Origin: a bacterium
GTDB taxonomy: Bacteria; SZUA-182; DTGQ01
DNA length: 36,392 nt
Assembly: GCA_040755755.1 (NCBI GenBank)
Contig: JBFLZW010000009.1
Coordinates: 1-36,392 of the forward strand
Direction of reading: 5' to 3'
The position numbers and the translations under genes are program-made. Numbering within the stretch: position 1 is the stretch's first letter; each line of letters begins with the position of its first letter. Positions 22,436 through 36,392 of the stretch are shown here, in pieces. The notes under the pieces were generated by a model. It did not search any database and was not told the DNA's origin. It saw only the letters and a list, made by a program, of their open reading frames with translations.

Positions 22436-23267
22436 GGTGTTTGGCCTCCTTCGGTGTTCCAGGGGTATAACTTTTGGTAGACACTCTTTCTTCTGCTTCC
22501 CTTTGCTTTTGCAATACCAGCCTGTTATAGCGACACAAGGCAGCGGCGGAGATTTTCTCGTTGAATTTCTCCATAATGGCTTCTGACACCTTTTCATACG
22601 CCATCCCCTGCTTGAGCAAGCTTATCGCCTCAGCTTTGGCATTCTCGGAAAGCTCATCGACCTTGAACCCACACCGGCCAGGAACCCTTTGCCCTTTAGG
22701 GAGATCATCATCCGGTGATGATGCCGTGCTCCTGATCTTAATCTTGGAAGTGCTTTTGGAAAAGGCAATCTCAACTTCAAACCCGGAATACTGCATAACT
22801 TCCCTGACAACCTCAATAGCTGTCTTCTCCGGATCAGGATTGAACGGCGTTGTTGCTCCTGGCATGGTATAGCTTCCGGTTTTGCGGAGTGAAGGGAGGA
22901 CTTCGGATGTTACCCATTTCCGGAATGGTTTAGCTTCCGGTTTGTTCGAGCGAAGGATAAGCGTGTAAAGACCAGATTCGTTAATGACCAGCATTTCCTG
23001 GGTGCCGCCAAGGGTGTAACTTTTGGTTATACCCTTTTCGTCATCATCTAATCCTTGGAGTGCCTTGCTCGTGTTGGACATTTCCAACACCTCACATACA
23101 TCCTTAGCCACCCACCAGGGAAGTCCATGCTCATCGATTGTTGTCCTTATTGCATGCTCTCCATAGTTGAAAAGCATTAACTGAAAGTTTTCCTTGCCGG
23201 GGGGATTGGATGAAGAGGAAGGTTGATCGTGCCCATCACTGGGCGGAATGCTTTGCTGCGTAGACAT
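22428..23267 (-). CDS. BRO-N antirepressor with C-terminal small-terminase-like HTH
   Basis: 279 aa, ATG at 23267 behind the very strong SD AAGGAGGTG. Residues 1-12 (MSTQQSIPPSDG) are identical to the start of the upstream antirepressor because both come from the duplicated leader cassette. Residues 27-130 form a BRO-N domain (NYGEHAIRTTIDEHGLPWWV, AKDVCEVLEMSNTSKAL, NESGLYTLILRSNKPEAKPF, FRKWVTSEVLPSLRKTG). Residues 190-250 (KGQRVPGRCGFKVDELSENA, AAALCRYNRL) match the N-terminal HTH of the DUF3486 gene at 19136-19852. BRO-type proteins usually counteract phage repressors. The leader with its own promoter suggests antisense control of translation. Confidence 0.85.
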   Translation of the reverse strand: MSTQQSIPPSDGHDQPSSSSNPPGKENFQLMLFNYGEHAIRTTIDEHGLPWWVAKDVCEVLEMSNTSKALQGLDDDEKGITKSYTLGGTQEMLVINESGLYTLILRSNKPEAKPFRKWVTSEVLPSLRKTGSYTMPGATTPFNPDPEKTAIEVVREVMQYSGFEVEIAFSKSTSKIKIRSTASSPDDDLPKGQRVPGRCGFKVDELSENAKAEAISLLKQGMAYEKVSEAIMEKFNEKISAAALCRYNRLVLQKQREAEERVSTKSYTPGTPKEAKHHE

Positions 23268-23279
23268 AGCTACACCTCC

Positions 23280-24059
23280 TTACAGTTGCGAGAATGCCCG
23301 CCAAAAGAGAAAGCCTGAGTGTTTGTCACGACCCTGTAAGGTGGCCGCCCCGGACCTCACGATCACGGGACACTCAGGCTTAATTTTTAGCGAATCACTC
23401 TCAATGCTTTGACAAAAAAAATAGCCTAAATCCGAGGCCAGCGGCCTTACAGTTTTCCCCGAAGCTATCGCTTCGAGGCATTTGACAATATCAATTATAC
23501 TTCTTTGGCAAGATATTATCAAATAAAAATTTCCGGCTATTTTTGAGGAAGGGGATTGCTCGGATGCTATTCCGAGCTTCAATAACAGGGCTTCCAGCTC
23601 CGGAGAAATTTTTCCTTCTTCGGCATCCTTATGCATCCGCTTGAAGGAGAAATACATCCTCACCAGATCACGCTGCACCTTCCAGGAAATATCATCGGTG
23701 AATGGCTTTACTACCATCAGGTAGCCAGACTCGGTGAGAAAGATCATTGATCTATGTTGATCTCTTGAGTCCTGTGTTTGCTGGTAGTTTGAGATGTCCG
23801 TTTGGTGGACATCTAAAATTGGCTTCCATTCCTCATAAGGGAGATCGAAATAATCCTCCCCTTCGATGAATCTGCTCTTATGCCGGTAGAATGTTTTCCT
23901 GGCGGTTCCATCGACTCTTTGATGCAGATCATCCACCATGCGGAAGGTAACAACCGGATGATCCTGATAGGTGATAAGCTGGACATCCTTATCCATGATA
24001 TGGATGGTGGCAGGAAGGTTTTGCCCATCACTGGGCGGAATGCTTTGCTGCGTAGACAT
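23280..24059 (-). CDS. ORF6N-type antirepressor with leader-derived C-terminus
   Basis: 259 aa from the ATG at 24059 with GGAGGTG upstream. Residues 1-12 are the cassette-encoded MSTQQSIPPSDG. Residues about 28-75 match an ORF6N-type domain (YQDHPVVTFRMVDDLHQRVD, GTARKTFYRHKSRFIEGEDY). A second conserved part follows (MIFLTESGYLMVVKPFTDDI). From about residue 172 the frame runs through leader copy 1 (IAGNFYLIISCQRSIIDIVK) and stops at a TAA that overlaps the SD of the next gene. The original C-terminus was probably replaced when the cassette inserted. Translating this gene would open the leader-1 hairpins, coupling the two antirepressors. Likely function: inactivating the repressor. Confidence 0.75.
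   Translation of the reverse strand: MSTQQSIPPSDGQNLPATIHIMDKDVQLITYQDHPVVTFRMVDDLHQRVDGTARKTFYRHKSRFIEGEDYFDLPYEEWKPILDVHQTDISNYQQTQDSRDQHRSMIFLTESGYLMVVKPFTDDISWKVQRDLVRMYFSFKRMHKDAEEGKISPELEALLLKLGIASEQSPSSKIAGNFYLIISCQRSIIDIVKCLEAIASGKTVRPLASDLGYFFCQSIESDSLKIKPECPVIVRSGAATLQGRDKHSGFLFWRAFSQL
23311..23381 (-). ncRNA. Candidate C4-like antisense RNA, unit 1
   Basis: A 71-nt hairpin closed by 11 bp, carrying in its loop CCTTACAG, fully complementary to CTGTAAGG at the antirepressor SD. C4 RNA of P1 is of similar size and is processed from the leader of the same transcript. If processed, this RNA would block translation of the BRO antirepressor. Confidence 0.6.
23494..23522 (-). promoter_or_regulatory. 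Sigma70 promoter of leader copy 1
   Basis: TTGATA (23522-23517) and TATAAT (23499-23494) with a 17-bp spacer; start expected near 23487, about 220 nt before the ATG. The arms TTTGATAATATC and GATATTGTCAAA, one mismatch apart from perfect inversion, flank the -10 and could be an operator. Confidence 0.7.
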
Positions 24060-24102
24060 ACCTACACCTCCGTTGGTTAGTGAGAATGCCCGCCAAAAGA
24101 GA

Positions 24103-24175
24103 AAGCCTGAGTGTTTGTCACGACCACCAACGGACGGGCCGCCCCTAATCTCACGATGTCGGGACACTCAGGCTT
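24103..24175 (-). ncRNA. Candidate C4-like antisense RNA, unit 2
   Basis: A 73-nt hairpin with the same closing stem as unit 1 but presenting CCGTTGGT, complementary to ACCAACGG at the SD of the ORF6N antirepressor. The loop word of one unit does not pair with the target of the other, so the two should act independently. Confidence 0.6.
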
Positions 24176-24290
24176 GTTTTTTAGCGAATCAATCTCAATA
24201 TTGCTTTGACAAAAAAAATAGCCGAAATCCGCGGCCACGGCCGTTGGTATTTTCCCCGAAGCTTTCGCTTCGAGGCATTTGACAATATCA

Positions 24291-24319
24291 ATTATACTTC
24301 TTTGGCAAGATATTATCAA
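24291..24319 (-). promoter_or_regulatory. Sigma70 promoter of leader copy 2
   Basis: TTGATA (24319-24314), 17-bp spacer, TATAAT (24296-24291); start expected near 24284. The promoter region is identical to that of copy 1, including the TTTGATAATATC / GATATTGTCAAA inverted arms. Confidence 0.7.
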
Positions 24320-24372
24320 ATAAAAATTTCCGGCTATTTTTCTTGTCGCCATGACTGCCATTTTCTTTTTTC

Positions 24373-24401
24373 TTGCAAGGAGAGCTGGCAGGCTTTATAA
24401 T
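24373..24401 (+). promoter_or_regulatory. Plus-strand sigma70 promoter for a small RNA
   Basis: TTGCAA (24373-24378), 17-bp spacer, TATAAT (24396-24401). It is divergent from leader copy 2 and followed 35 bp later by an intrinsic terminator on the same strand. Confidence 0.7.
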
Positions 24402-24407
24402 GCAGCT

Positions 24408-24470
24408 ATCCTTGAATTTGTTAAACTATGTTTTGGGCTCGCTGGCAGCCTACTCCAGCGGGCCTTTTTT
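24408..24470 (+). ncRNA. Candidate small RNA of about 63 nt
   Basis: Defined by the promoter at 24373-24401 and the terminator at 24436-24470. The 5' part (about 28 nt) is AU-rich and unstructured and the 3' half is the terminator hairpin. The size and location recall sar RNA of P22, a small RNA that controls the ant antirepressor, although here it does not overlap the antirepressor. A short ATG frame at 24401 runs through the terminator and has no clear RBS, so a peptide is unlikely. Confidence 0.55.
24436..24470 (+). terminator. Intrinsic terminator, plus strand
   Basis: GGCTCGCTGG and CCAGCGGGCC form a 10-bp stem (one G-U) with a 9-nt loop, followed by TTTTTT. On the minus strand no T-run follows the stem, so it acts on plus-strand transcripts only. 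Confidence 0.8.
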
Positions 24471-24495
24471 ATTTCCCCCTTCCCCCCTTTCCCCC

Positions 24496-25722
24496 TCACA
24501 CCGCCACCCTGCTCAGCGGCACTGCCCTGTATCGTGGATTCGTCAGCCCCTGATACCATTCATCGATCGTGACGCACTGGATCCTGCGGGCTGCGATGTA
24601 GTCGATCAGCGCCCGAAAGTCGGCGATTGCCCAGGTGTTGGCCCCGGCTGCCGCCTCCAAGGAGTGGCCGTGGAAAACAACAGTAGACTGCTGGGTGATC
24701 GCGTTATCCACCAGAGTCTTGGCTGCCGCCAAAGTCGTCCCGCTGTCGAGGGCCTTACTGTTGAGCAGCTTCAGGTTATCCACCGGCGCGTATTGGAGTG
24801 AGCTTCTCGTTGTCCGTCCCGTCAGAATGCCGCAGGCATCCATCGCCGCCAAAACATCGGCATTATACACTCCCCCTGGATAGGCCAGATAATACGCTGC
24901 CCTGGTATATCCCTGGGCAATCAGCCAGTCGGTACACTGCTGTATCTCGTCCTCGATCTGGGCCTGGGATAGCCCGGTCAGATAATCCGGAGCGCCCGGA
25001 TGGGTGTAGGTATGGTTTGCCAGAGCCCACCCGGCATCGTACAGTTCATCCACCTGAGCCAGGGTCATATAGCCGTCTGTCCCAACCAGGGCAGGGACCG
25101 TGTACAGTGTCCCCGGCACTCCTCTGGCGGACATATAGGAAAACCCTTCGCTATAGGCTGATGTCCGCCCATCGTCGAACGCGATAATACACCTGGGAAG
25201 CTGCTCGGTTGAGTGCCTGAACTCATCAATTGAGATGCTGGCTGTCTGGCCTGTTTTAGCCACAAGTTTGATATACATCCTGATTATGGCATTCCAGGTT
25301 TCCCCATTCACTACTGTCCACCGGCTTCTTGGTATGACAAGGTGTGTCCAGCCCTCGTCGAGCAAATCAGCGCCACTGAGAGATAAGTTCATGCTTTTGC
25401 TCAGATCTGAGGTCGAGGTAAGCTGTATTAACACCTCGTTTACCGTAGTTGATGGCACGGAATGGGAATAAAACCATATATGCATCGCTTTACTCGCCGC
25501 CCGCAGATCCACTGCCGCAGGTAAAATTTTCCTGGCCATGATCCACGATCCCGGCGTGGTCACGCTTAATTTGAGCGACTGGCTGCCAGTCCGATACTGA
25601 CTGGTATTGGCCGCTATCGTTCCATCCGTGCCGATCGTGGTGAAATCGCCGACAGCCTCAAAATCCTCAAAGAGAATGCCATTGCTCACCATATAATTTT
25701 GTGGTAACGATGATCGCGACAT
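24496..25722 (-). CDS. Polysaccharide deacetylase-like (NodB) protein
   Basis: 408 aa. The N-terminal half (about 1-170) is a beta-sandwich-like domain (ILFEDFEAVGDFTTIGTDGT, TGSQSLKLSVTTPGSW, GWTHLVIPRSRW) that may bind carbohydrate. The C-terminal half has NodB motifs: IAFDDGRTSAY (catalytic/metal Asp pair), ALANHTYTHPG (His pair), YLAYPGGVYN, and TVVFHGHSLE near the end. There is no signal peptide. Such enzymes remove acetyl groups from surface glycans. As a phage protein it could be virion-borne and modify capsule or peptidoglycan. It is odd that it lies between replication genes and antirepressors rather than in the tail operon; it may be a cargo pair with the next gene upstream. Confidence 0.8.
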   Translation of the reverse strand: MSRSSLPQNYMVSNGILFEDFEAVGDFTTIGTDGTIAANTSQYRTGSQSLKLSVTTPGSWIMARKILPAAVDLRAASKAMHIWFYSHSVPSTTVNEVLIQLTSTSDLSKSMNLSLSGADLLDEGWTHLVIPRSRWTVVNGETWNAIIRMYIKLVAKTGQTASISIDEFRHSTEQLPRCIIAFDDGRTSAYSEGFSYMSARGVPGTLYTVPALVGTDGYMTLAQVDELYDAGWALANHTYTHPGAPDYLTGLSQAQIEDEIQQCTDWLIAQGYTRAAYYLAYPGGVYNADVLAAMDACGILTGRTTRSSLQYAPVDNLKLLNSKALDSGTTLAAAKTLVDNAITQQSTVVFHGHSLEAAAGANTWAIADFRALIDYIAARRIQCVTIDEWYQGLTNPRYRAVPLSRVAV

Positions 25723-28308: not shown

Positions 28309-28821
28309 TCAGGTTAAATCCCTGATATTGAACTCCGTCGTTTCATAATAGGGCAAATCCCTGACTTCCCGTTTAGCGCCAACCTGCCTGAGCTTTTCAT
28401 CAGCCCAGTCTTCCATAACTTCCTTCCTCAACTTCTCCTCCACCTTGATGGCCTCGATATAGCCAAACTCCTTACACCATTTCAGCGTGTCCTTGCAGGC
28501 CCTGATCTTGGTTGACTTCCGGAAGCCGATAGTGCCATAATTCAGTTCCTGACTCCGTTTTTCCGTGAACAGGCTTGCCTTGTTCTTCGCCATGAAGGAC
28601 GCCAGTTCCTCCTCGATTGCACCAATCTGCTCACGAATCGGATTGGCCAGTTTGAGCTTTTCCTCCACGATCAGGTCAATGGCCTTTTCTGCATCGGCCT
28701 CGATCCCTTTGAGATTCCGCATCATATCAGCCAGTCTGTGCAGAGCTTCGTCAGCCTCCGCCAGGGTGGTAATGGGCTCCGCAAAAACCTTCTTTTCCTT
28801 CACTGCCGCCGTCTTGCTCAT
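28309..28821 (-). CDS. gam: Host-nuclease inhibitor Gam
   Basis: 170 aa, ATG at 28821 overlapping the upstream stop (ATGA). It is a long coiled coil (TLAEADEALHRLADMMRNLK, IREQIGAIEEELASFMAKNK) followed by the conserved LNYGTIGFRKSTKIRACKD and a C-terminal helical part. This matches Mu Gam, which binds double-strand DNA ends and protects infecting phage DNA from exonucleases such as RecBCD. The length is typical. Confidence 0.92.
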   Translation of the reverse strand: MSKTAAVKEKKVFAEPITTLAEADEALHRLADMMRNLKGIEADAEKAIDLIVEEKLKLANPIREQIGAIEEELASFMAKNKASLFTEKRSQELNYGTIGFRKSTKIRACKDTLKWCKEFGYIEAIKVEEKLRKEVMEDWADEKLRQVGAKREVRDLPYYETTEFNIRDLT

Positions 28822-29903
28822 TTTCCCGCTCCGTATCTTGCTCTATTCGCTCTGTTGACTGCATTCCCTTCCATCGATGCGAGCAGTTCTTCCGGCACAC
28901 CGTCTTTCGCAAAAACAGCCGATAAATCTGTGTCCTGGCTTGCCTGGAGAAGCTTGGTATAGTACAATTTTATTGCGATCCTGATTGCATCGAGATGGAG
29001 ATAGACTTCCTGGAGATATTTCATCTTGTCATCGTCGCGGACCTTATGGATGACCAAATTCAACCACTGGATTTTACTGATACAATCTTCATAGAAACCA
29101 TCCAGAATCCTGCGGATGTTCTCGATCCTCTCGGCTTCCAGGAAATCGGGGGCTTCGAGGGCTTCGGCTATGGCAGGCGGAGTTTCCTGGACATCCTTGG
29201 ACAAATGAGGCTCCGTTTGCTCTTGTGCAGCCATTGCCCCCTCTTGAGCTGGTTCTTCCGGCTGTTCGGGAAGCCGCGTGCGATTACCATGAGATTTCCC
29301 GGCATTCTGCTGTACCGGATTGCCGTCCGGTGCAGCAGAGGAAGGCGCTGCTTCATCGGCGCCGGAAGTGGGAGCGTGCTGCGGTGGCACTGCCTCGGTA
29401 AGGATAGCCGGGAGAGTGCCGCCCGCAGCCTCAATTTTCTTTCTGTATTTCGAGGGAGCCATATACAGTGGTTCAGGTCGTTCAGCCCCCTCGCACAGAG
29501 AATAATATACATGCCGCCAGTCGGTTCCATGCCCCTTCATATGCCGTTTCACTATTCCCCGCAGATATAGGTACATCAGAAACTTCCTGGCATAGACATA
29601 GCTGGCATTGTTACAAATCACGCACAGGTCCCTGATCTCAAATGACCCGTGCTGGGAAAGCACCCGGACGCCGTGCCATAGCTTCTCGGCTATCTTCTGA
29701 GGGCGTTGCTTTGTGGCTTTAGAGCTGGCAGCCGTATTTTCTTCCTCACCAGCCTGTATTTCTCCCGTGACTCCCTTCTTTTCTCCCTCGCCCCCCTGGG
29801 GAGAGGGCCGGGGTGAGGGGTTCTCGTTCCCTGCAACCTCCTGGGATAGTGTTTCTTGTCTCAATTCTTCCGGTGATGCCGGTAACCTGAGCGTTTTTCT
29901 CAT
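28818..29903 (-). CDS. Hypothetical protein with winged-helix-like segment
   Basis: 361 aa, ATG at 29903 with GGAG upstream. Residues 65-125 (QKIAEKLWHGVRVLSQHGSF, EIRDLCVICNNASYVYARKF, LYLRGIVKRHMKG) look like a winged helix. The middle (160-240) is low-complexity Pro/Ala/Glu-rich, and the C-terminal 100 residues are helical. Residues 27-41 (ENPSPRPSPQGGEGE) are the translation of a CCCTCGCCCC/GGGGTGAGGGG repeat inserted in frame. It lies between the MuB-like and gam genes; a DNA-binding role in replication or regulation is possible. Confidence 0.6.
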   Translation of the reverse strand: MRKTLRLPASPEELRQETLSQEVAGNENPSPRPSPQGGEGEKKGVTGEIQAGEEENTAASSKATKQRPQKIAEKLWHGVRVLSQHGSFEIRDLCVICNNASYVYARKFLMYLYLRGIVKRHMKGHGTDWRHVYYSLCEGAERPEPLYMAPSKYRKKIEAAGGTLPAILTEAVPPQHAPTSGADEAAPSSAAPDGNPVQQNAGKSHGNRTRLPEQPEEPAQEGAMAAQEQTEPHLSKDVQETPPAIAEALEAPDFLEAERIENIRRILDGFYEDCISKIQWLNLVIHKVRDDDKMKYLQEVYLHLDAIRIAIKLYYTKLLQASQDTDLSAVFAKDGVPEELLASMEGNAVNRANRARYGAGK

Positions 29904-30695: not shown

Positions 30696-31171
30696 TCTCC
30701 CCTTTCACCTCCTTCCTTCCTCGATTCAGGGCTATCACTCACTTAAATATCCAGTGAGCAGGTTTCCTTCACTTCTTCCGCTCTCTGCCGACTTTCCCGC
30801 CTTGTCCATTGCCGCTTATTACGAATGGCACTTACATAAGAATTAGTAATTCTCCCGCAGAGACGCTGAGACGCAGAGGATATCATTGAAAAGTAAAAGT
30901 AAAATAAGTTCCTCCTTGTGCCTTTTTACTTTTTGCTTGCTTCCAGGCCGTTGACACATCGATATATCCCGACTTTCATCAGGACCTTGCCGGATTGGTT
31001 GTTCTCTGCGTCTCTGCGTCTCTGCGTCTCTGCGGGAGATCTTTTTTCCCTGTGTGCACTGAAATCTTTTCAACTTTCTCCATCCCCTCCACCTCCTTTC
31101 TTCTTAATGGTCAGTGGCCAGTGGTCAGTGAAAGACCTGCTTTTCTCCTGACTTCTGACTTCTGACTTCTC
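30696..31171. repeat. Repeat-filled gap of 476 bp between MuB-like and upstream gene
   Basis: Contains the split arms of a GCAGAGACGC palindrome (30850-30880 and 31011-31040) separated by an AT-rich insert with AAAAGTAAAAGTAAAA and TTTTTACTTTTTG arms, a CAGTGGCCAGTGGTCAGTG repeat (31108-31130) and TGACTTCTGACTTCTGACTT (31147-31170). Between 30730 and 30840 a short minus-strand frame (VSAIRNKRQWTRRESRQRAE, then EVKETCSLDI) has no start codon and may be a gene cut by the palindrome insertion. No intact gene was seen. Confidence 0.7.
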
Positions 31172-35444: not shown

Positions 35445-35472
35445 CCTATAATAATATATCACTATAGAGATA

Positions 35473-35922
35473 ATGTCAACTGATAAAACCCAAAATAGCG
35501 ATAACAATTCATTTAACACCCGGCTGGTAAAACTGCTGTCTGCCTGTAAATTGTCCCAGCTATCGCTTGCAAAAGCAATAGGTATATCTCAATCAATTAT
35601 CTCTGAATGGATCAGCGGGAAAAAAAATCCTCGACTACCAGCTCTTGAATCTATCGCAAAAGAGACAGGGGCTAACCTGAACTGGCTAATCCTTGGGGAA
35701 GGCCCCATGTTTCGTGAAGGTGCAGGTATAGAAAAAACTATCCCTACCGAAAATTTACCCAAAGAACAATTTAAACGCTGGTTAGACGAATTCTGGTTAG
35801 AAGCTGATCCAGATCAAAGAACCTGGCTCAAGGTCGAGTTGAGGGAAAAAATCCCCAAGTTTGCTGATTGGCTAAAAAAAATGGACGAACGCCAGGAAGG
35901 AGGCAGTCGTCAAGTGGGGTAA
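35473..35922 (+). CDS. CI-like phage repressor (XRE HTH)
   Basis: 149 aa, the main plus-strand gene at the phage left end. Residues 13-70 form an XRE HTH (FNTRLVKLLSACKLSQLSLA, KAIGISQSIISEWISGKKNP), followed by the common LESIAKETGANLNWLILGEG PMF junction. The C-terminal part (KEQFKRWLDEFWLEADPDQR) is helical and lacks an S24 peptidase Ser/Lys pair, so it is not a LexA-type self-cleaving repressor. That fits induction through antirepressors rather than RecA. It is transcribed divergently from the Ner-like gene with a 5' leader of about 14 nt. Confidence 0.88.
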   Translation: MSTDKTQNSDNNSFNTRLVKLLSACKLSQLSLAKAIGISQSIISEWISGKKNPRLPALESIAKETGANLNWLILGEGPMFREGAGIEKTIPTENLPKEQFKRWLDEFWLEADPDQRTWLKVELREKIPKFADWLKKMDERQEGGSRQVG

Positions 35923-36265: not shown

Positions 36266-36392
36266 ACTCACTACCGGACACATTTTTAGAAATAGATTGA
36301 GAACACATTAGCTGTCGCTCATGATATACTCTAAGTAATTGAAAAAATAATTAAAAAGGAGTATATCATGAGCGACAATATGAGAACATATA
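36266..36392. repeat. Right copy of the 127-bp terminal inverted repeat
   Basis: Exact reverse complement of 1-127. Inside it the 19-bp arms TGTCGCTCATGATATACTC (36313-36331) and GAGTATATCATGAGCGACA (36359-36377) flank a 27-bp AT-rich spacer. The second arm includes the start codon of the outward frame. Confidence 0.9.
36368..36392 (+). CDS. Partial outward-reading ORF start (possible IS gene), right copy
   Basis: ATG at 36368 with AAAAAGGAG 6 nt upstream, reading MSDNMRTY to the window edge. Identical to the left copy. The product cannot be named from eight codons. Confidence 0.4.

Follow-up and report, generated by a model that had tools for sequence, protein, structure and literature searches.

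A candidate small-RNA transcription unit between an antirepressor leader and a polysaccharide deacetylase gene in a Mu-like phage

Location of the unit

The stretch of DNA analysed here (the window) is a whole contig of 36,392 bases that carries a Mu-like phage, in which a transposase (PHROG 310), a MuB-like protein (PHROG 296) and Gam-like, GemA, DnaC-like loader, terminase and portal genes were identified. All identified phage genes lie on the minus strand except a repressor-like gene at 35473–35922. Adjoining the latter, a minus-strand promoter (TTGACA-17-TATTAT, 11/12; 35451–35479) lies over an operator-like palindrome, TATCACTATAGAGATA (35457–35472), and at the contig end an 18-bp perfect inverted repeat seen by eye, GTCGCTCATGATATACTC / GAGTATATCATGAGCGAC (36314–36331 / 36359–36376), flanks a start codon. 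The unit considered here sits in a 134-bp gap between the end, at 24496, of a minus-strand polysaccharide deacetylase gene (24496–25722; Pfam PF01522), which lies 26 bp past the unit, and an open frame over the leader of the antirepressor gene ant1, which reaches 24361.

Signals and predicted RNA

A sigma-70-type promoter on the plus strand, TTGCAA-17-TATAAT (24373–24401; −35 at 24373–24378, −10 at 24396–24401), scores 10/12 and is followed on the same strand by an intrinsic terminator (24436–24470) with a 10-bp stem, a 9-nt loop and six T residues. The stem arms, GGCTCGCTGG (24436–24445) and CCAGCGGGCC (24455–24464), form ten pairs, one of them G-U, and the T run occupies 24465–24470. Both signals had been placed here, on this strand, by a preliminary description made from the sequence alone, and both were found where it had them; the spacing from −10 to stem measures 34 bp rather than the 35 bp that it gave, while the enclosed length of about 63 nt holds. 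A simple terminator scan, with its loop limit of 8, skips this 9-nt-loop terminator.

With a start inferred from the −10 element, the predicted noncoding RNA would span 24408–24470 on the plus strand and fold as a 27-nt unpaired 5′ tail (24408–24434) followed by the terminator hairpin (z −3.3); the hairpin itself (24430–24471) has a folding energy of −21.9 kcal/mol (z −4.2). The tail starts with AUCCUUGA, its opening UCCUU resembling an anti-Shine–Dalgarno (anti-SD) sequence. The hairpin suits a plus-strand transcript, since its G-U pair becomes a C-A mismatch on the minus strand and the T run is present on the plus strand alone. Open reading frames that begin inside the predicted RNA have 41 to 129 codons and extend past the terminator, none of them being credible, and no obvious SD sequence was seen by eye for any of them, in agreement with the earlier remark that the unit encloses no convincing frame.

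Frequency of the signals in shuffled, host and viral DNA

Strong terminators were defined by a stem of at least 8 perfect or G-U pairs, of which at least 6 are G-C, a loop of 3–10 and at least 6 T in 8. Under this rule the window holds a single one over both strands, the unit's own, against expectations of 0.067 from 60 whole-window shuffles and 0.1 from 40 local shuffles, and 0 of 60 shuffled windows contained any promoter–terminator pair. When the 100 bp upstream of the stem were shuffled, a promoter of at least 10/12 arose in 37 of 5000 cases. Seven sites of this quality occur in the window against 5.1 expected; by itself, the promoter is weak evidence and unremarkable in this window. The host does use this type of promoter: host DNA contains 21 sites of at least 11/12 (3.6 expected) and three of 12/12 (0 expected).

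None of the six strong terminators in the host sample (367,091 bases in 21 stretches) had a 10/12 promoter 5–100 bp upstream, and one of 61 did in the viral sample (1,397,584 bases from 96 loci, 80 collected via terminase and 16 via antirepressor). In that one case (L093) the promoter lies only 15 bp from the stem, where an opposing gene ends, and the layout is not that of a small RNA. At least 6 kb upstream was available for 44 of the 80 terminase loci, which held eight antisense strong terminators, none with a promoter. Because of these shuffle counts and host and viral frequencies, we regard the terminator as solid and its pairing with a promoter as unusual. The unit has the layout of a free-standing small RNA with an intrinsic terminator, that is, a promoter and a strong terminator around a short stretch free of reading frames. 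What had been described as a compact small-RNA unit is well above chance, and its best reading is as a small-RNA gene or what is left of a transcription unit.

The same appearance would result from an insulator or from a remnant, and both are real rivals to a small-RNA gene. As a strand insulator, the terminator would block stray plus-strand transcription from the ant region that would otherwise enter the deacetylase gene antisense, the promoter-like site being incidental or a feeder. The position, exactly between two transcription blocks, fits this explanation, as does the terminator being by far the stronger signal in a window where promoters of at least 10/12 are barely in excess (7 versus 5.1). 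We nevertheless consider an insulator rather unlikely, as a promoter this good turned up in merely 37 of 5000 local shuffles and no other source of plus-strand transcription is apparent from 24320 to the unit.

Relatives of the unit and the origin of its neighbours

The 161-bp region around the unit has no second copy in its own genome, where the terminator core is also single-copy at up to 3 mismatches. Across 192 other genomes a 441-bp query matched nothing within the unit, and no match was found in the 8 other genomes of the phylum. Searches of viral contigs with two patterns returned no true relative; a match in L089 was dropped because it lies inside a coding gene, and those in L131 and L132 because they are nearly the same sequence, whose hairpin is similar but lacks a T run. 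With blastn, phage sequences covered just 21 of 171 bases (E 0.5) and plasmids gave no match to the unit. No similar unit was present at the 16 loci of antirepressor relatives, and among the 80 loci of terminase relatives an ant2-like match occurred in one only (L048).

A copy of the phage deacetylase, 68% identical at the protein level, is present in a host contig (C83), and the neighbouring gene of 161 aa shares 81% DNA identity with its own host homologue; no relatives of the deacetylase were found in viral contigs. Because both host homologues belong to one polysaccharide locus (L109, 8273–9481 and 15026–15619), the minus-strand phage stretch 24496–26216 is likely to be host-derived cargo. 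Elsewhere in the phage, a 244-bp intergenic stretch (30814–31057) is 90.6% identical to host chromosomal DNA (L109, 7820–8055) and holds repeats of the ctctgcgtctctgcgg type, which recur in the phage.

These homologues bear on the possibility that the unit is a remnant, namely the 3′ end of a lost plus-strand gene that converged on the deacetylase gene and was left behind by cargo acquisition or rearrangement. DNA appears to have been imported beside the unit, since the neighbouring genes have close homologues in the host polysaccharide locus; homology to the host copy stops at 24527, just outside the unit, and the unit is without relatives, all of which would suit a remnant. Between the end of the leader duplication (about 24342) and the terminator, however, there is no coding trace, and the host copy of the deacetylase gene has nothing similar after it, which makes a remnant unlikely.

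A dyad across the promoter

An inverted repeat, CAAGGAGAGCTG / CAGCTATCCTTG (24376–24414, 11/12), runs from the −35 element to just beyond the expected transcription start. A dyad of this kind arose in 2 of 300 local shuffles, but the same rule applied across the whole window yields 53, overlapping registers included, and the dyad is for that reason suggestive only of a possible operator. With zero mismatches its half-site occurs nowhere but here, and at up to 2 mismatches 13 occurrences were seen against 12.75 expected; it therefore defines no regulon. The presumed repressor operator (35457–35472) is absent near the unit. The ant promoters likewise lie within dyads that are unlike the unit's in sequence; for ant1, a minus-strand promoter TTGATA-17-TATAAT (24319–24291), divergent from the unit, lies in TTGATAATATC / GATATTGTCAA (24279–24319).

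The dyad could instead be the first RNA hairpin of a structured RNA begun further upstream. A two-hairpin fold is indeed predicted for 24373–24471 (z −3.2), one that none of 200 shuffles equalled, and a weak Rfam match, the trpB motif (RF04312; 26.5 bits, E 0.49), has this shape. That match is far under the gathering score of 59; no Rfam family matched the unit at its gathering score. No promoter-like site upstream fits such an RNA either, and we judge it improbable.

Relation to the antirepressor genes

The ant genes carry RNA signals of their own. The minus-strand leaders of ant1 (24062–24284, a neighbour of the unit that lies outside it) and of ant2 (23270–23487, the second copy) are paralogous and belong to copies, 24062–24342 and 23270–23544, that are 88% identical. 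Each contains C4-like A/B/C segments: one with the SD, one complementary to it and, close to the 5′ end, a third that is SD-like. They read CCAACGG / CCGTTGG / CCAACGG in copy 1 and, in the same order, CTGTAAGG / CCTTACAG / CTGTAAGG in copy 2. Past the 5′ segment, both leaders have an intrinsic terminator-like hairpin (24238–24218 in ant1). The middle segment pairs with the SD of its own copy (B:C) at −18.9 and −17.2 kcal/mol and with the SD of the other copy at −8.9 and −12.2 kcal/mol; pairing with the 5′ segment is not copy-specific in one direction (copy 2 middle with copy 1 5′, −20.1). The SD, anti-SD and third segments have been altered in step between the copies, which would be consistent with c4-like control by copy-specific SD pairing. 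The c4 RNA of P1 and P7 is 77 nt long, and it resembles the ant leaders in that upstream segments can pair with the ribosome-binding site of ant, according to passages of PMC12197685; both ant leaders have such segments, whereas the unit has none. No Rfam C4 match was found in 23000–24700, both leaders included, up to E 10. The ant1 reading frame crosses the second leader (23280–23549, minus strand), so that leader DNA encodes its last ~90 residues, and leader 1 has the matching frame open as well (24077–24361). One of 193 genomes (G114) has a stretch that matches the ant promoter (33 bases, 88%, E 1.8e-4); this match was given no weight, as it falls in an unrelated-looking, AT-rich place.

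The preliminary description had likened the unit to P22 sar, an antisense RNA of 68/69 nt that pairs with ant mRNA, as described in passages of PMC13397905 and PMC12197685. The unit shares with sar its size (about 63 nt predicted, near 68 nt), phage origin and an antirepressor gene nearby, and its strand agrees as well, but it is divergent from ant instead of overlapping it on the opposite strand. With a start lying about 124 bp upstream of the one predicted for ant, and transcription leading away from that gene, its RNA shares no template with ant; antisense overlap of ant and complementarity to the ribosome-binding site are both lacking. Pairing with the leaders, for which short complementarities had been noted earlier, was no better than in controls: 199 of 300 and 176 of 300 shuffled units paired as well or better with leaders 1 and 2, shuffled leaders did as well in 188 of 300 and 173 of 300 cases, and joint folding of the unit with the two leaders was equalled by 90 of 100 and 66 of 100 shuffles. 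An 11-bp near-match of leader 2 to the unit's 3′ stem arm, spotted by eye, was unremarkable in duplex and in joint folding. The 5′ tail alone, paired with short leader RNAs, falls at the better end of the shuffles, yet not decisively, whether the tails (24 of 300 and 37 of 300 as good) or the short leader RNAs (12 of 300 and 20 of 300) were shuffled. The leaders, moreover, already hold their own SD-pairing segment. The adjacent ant leaders are not the unit's target, nothing links the unit to the neighbouring antirepressor genes, and the proposal that it is an antisense regulator of them in the manner of sar, which leader pairing no better than that of shuffled RNA and the divergent geometry both contradict, is very improbable.

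Search for a target in trans

Among 2070 phage windows, the best duplex of the 5′ tail (−20.3 kcal/mol) falls on the SD region at the start of an early gene (28818–29903) located just downstream of the MuB-like gene. Only 1 of 500 shuffled tails did as well at this single site, and 6 of 200 shuffles did as well when the best of 37 start regions was taken; over the whole phage, 62 of 120 shuffled tails reach −20.3 kcal/mol somewhere, and for this reason no target is supported. In host DNA, a duplex of this energy occurred in one of 20,916 sampled windows. The start of this gene is thus the least bad phage candidate, no better than chance and a guess only. That an orphan small RNA with its own operator dyad dampens this early replication-block gene by covering its SD, in a Mu-like phage of a little-known phylum whose antirepressors are under separate control of paired c4-like leaders, is very improbable.

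Interpretation

The reading we favour, with a probability of roughly 40%, is that the unit stands alone as a transcription unit of the prophage and is predicted to yield a noncoding transcript of about 63 nt. It is favoured because the sole strong terminator in the window lies on a strand with no gene to end, because a promoter and a terminator within 100 bp of each other are rare in host and viral DNA, because the host uses this type of promoter, because no credible reading frame is present and the hairpin suits a plus-strand transcript, and because the best tail duplex among the phage windows falls on an SD region; it is weakened by a promoter of just 10/12 and by the many shuffled tails that equal this duplex, and no second copy or relative turned up in the genomes and viral contigs searched. 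Host RNA polymerase would start near 24408 and stop at 24470, and the resulting RNA would present its 27-nt unpaired tail ahead of a stable 3′ hairpin and U tail that would serve as protection. More speculatively, the anti-SD-like UCCUU of the tail might pair in trans with an mRNA at its start region, lowering translation, and a protein bound to the promoter-spanning inverted repeat might toggle the RNA on or off.

Free-standing phage small RNAs such as DicF and AgvB act in trans through a short unpaired stretch. The unit resembles that type in its length, within 50–90 nt, and in ending at an intrinsic terminator, although no sequence relation to either was seen. DicF is 53 nt and AgvB about 60 nt long, according to passages of PMC12197685. 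No literature was found that combines moron, Mu-like and small RNA.

If transcribed, the unit would be a candidate small-RNA gene of a Mu-like phage from a sparsely sampled phylum. Closeness to an antirepressor gene is insufficient for calling an RNA sar-like, and the ant leaders nearby, two paralogous copies whose three segments have been altered in step, offer the more instructive case of RNA control.
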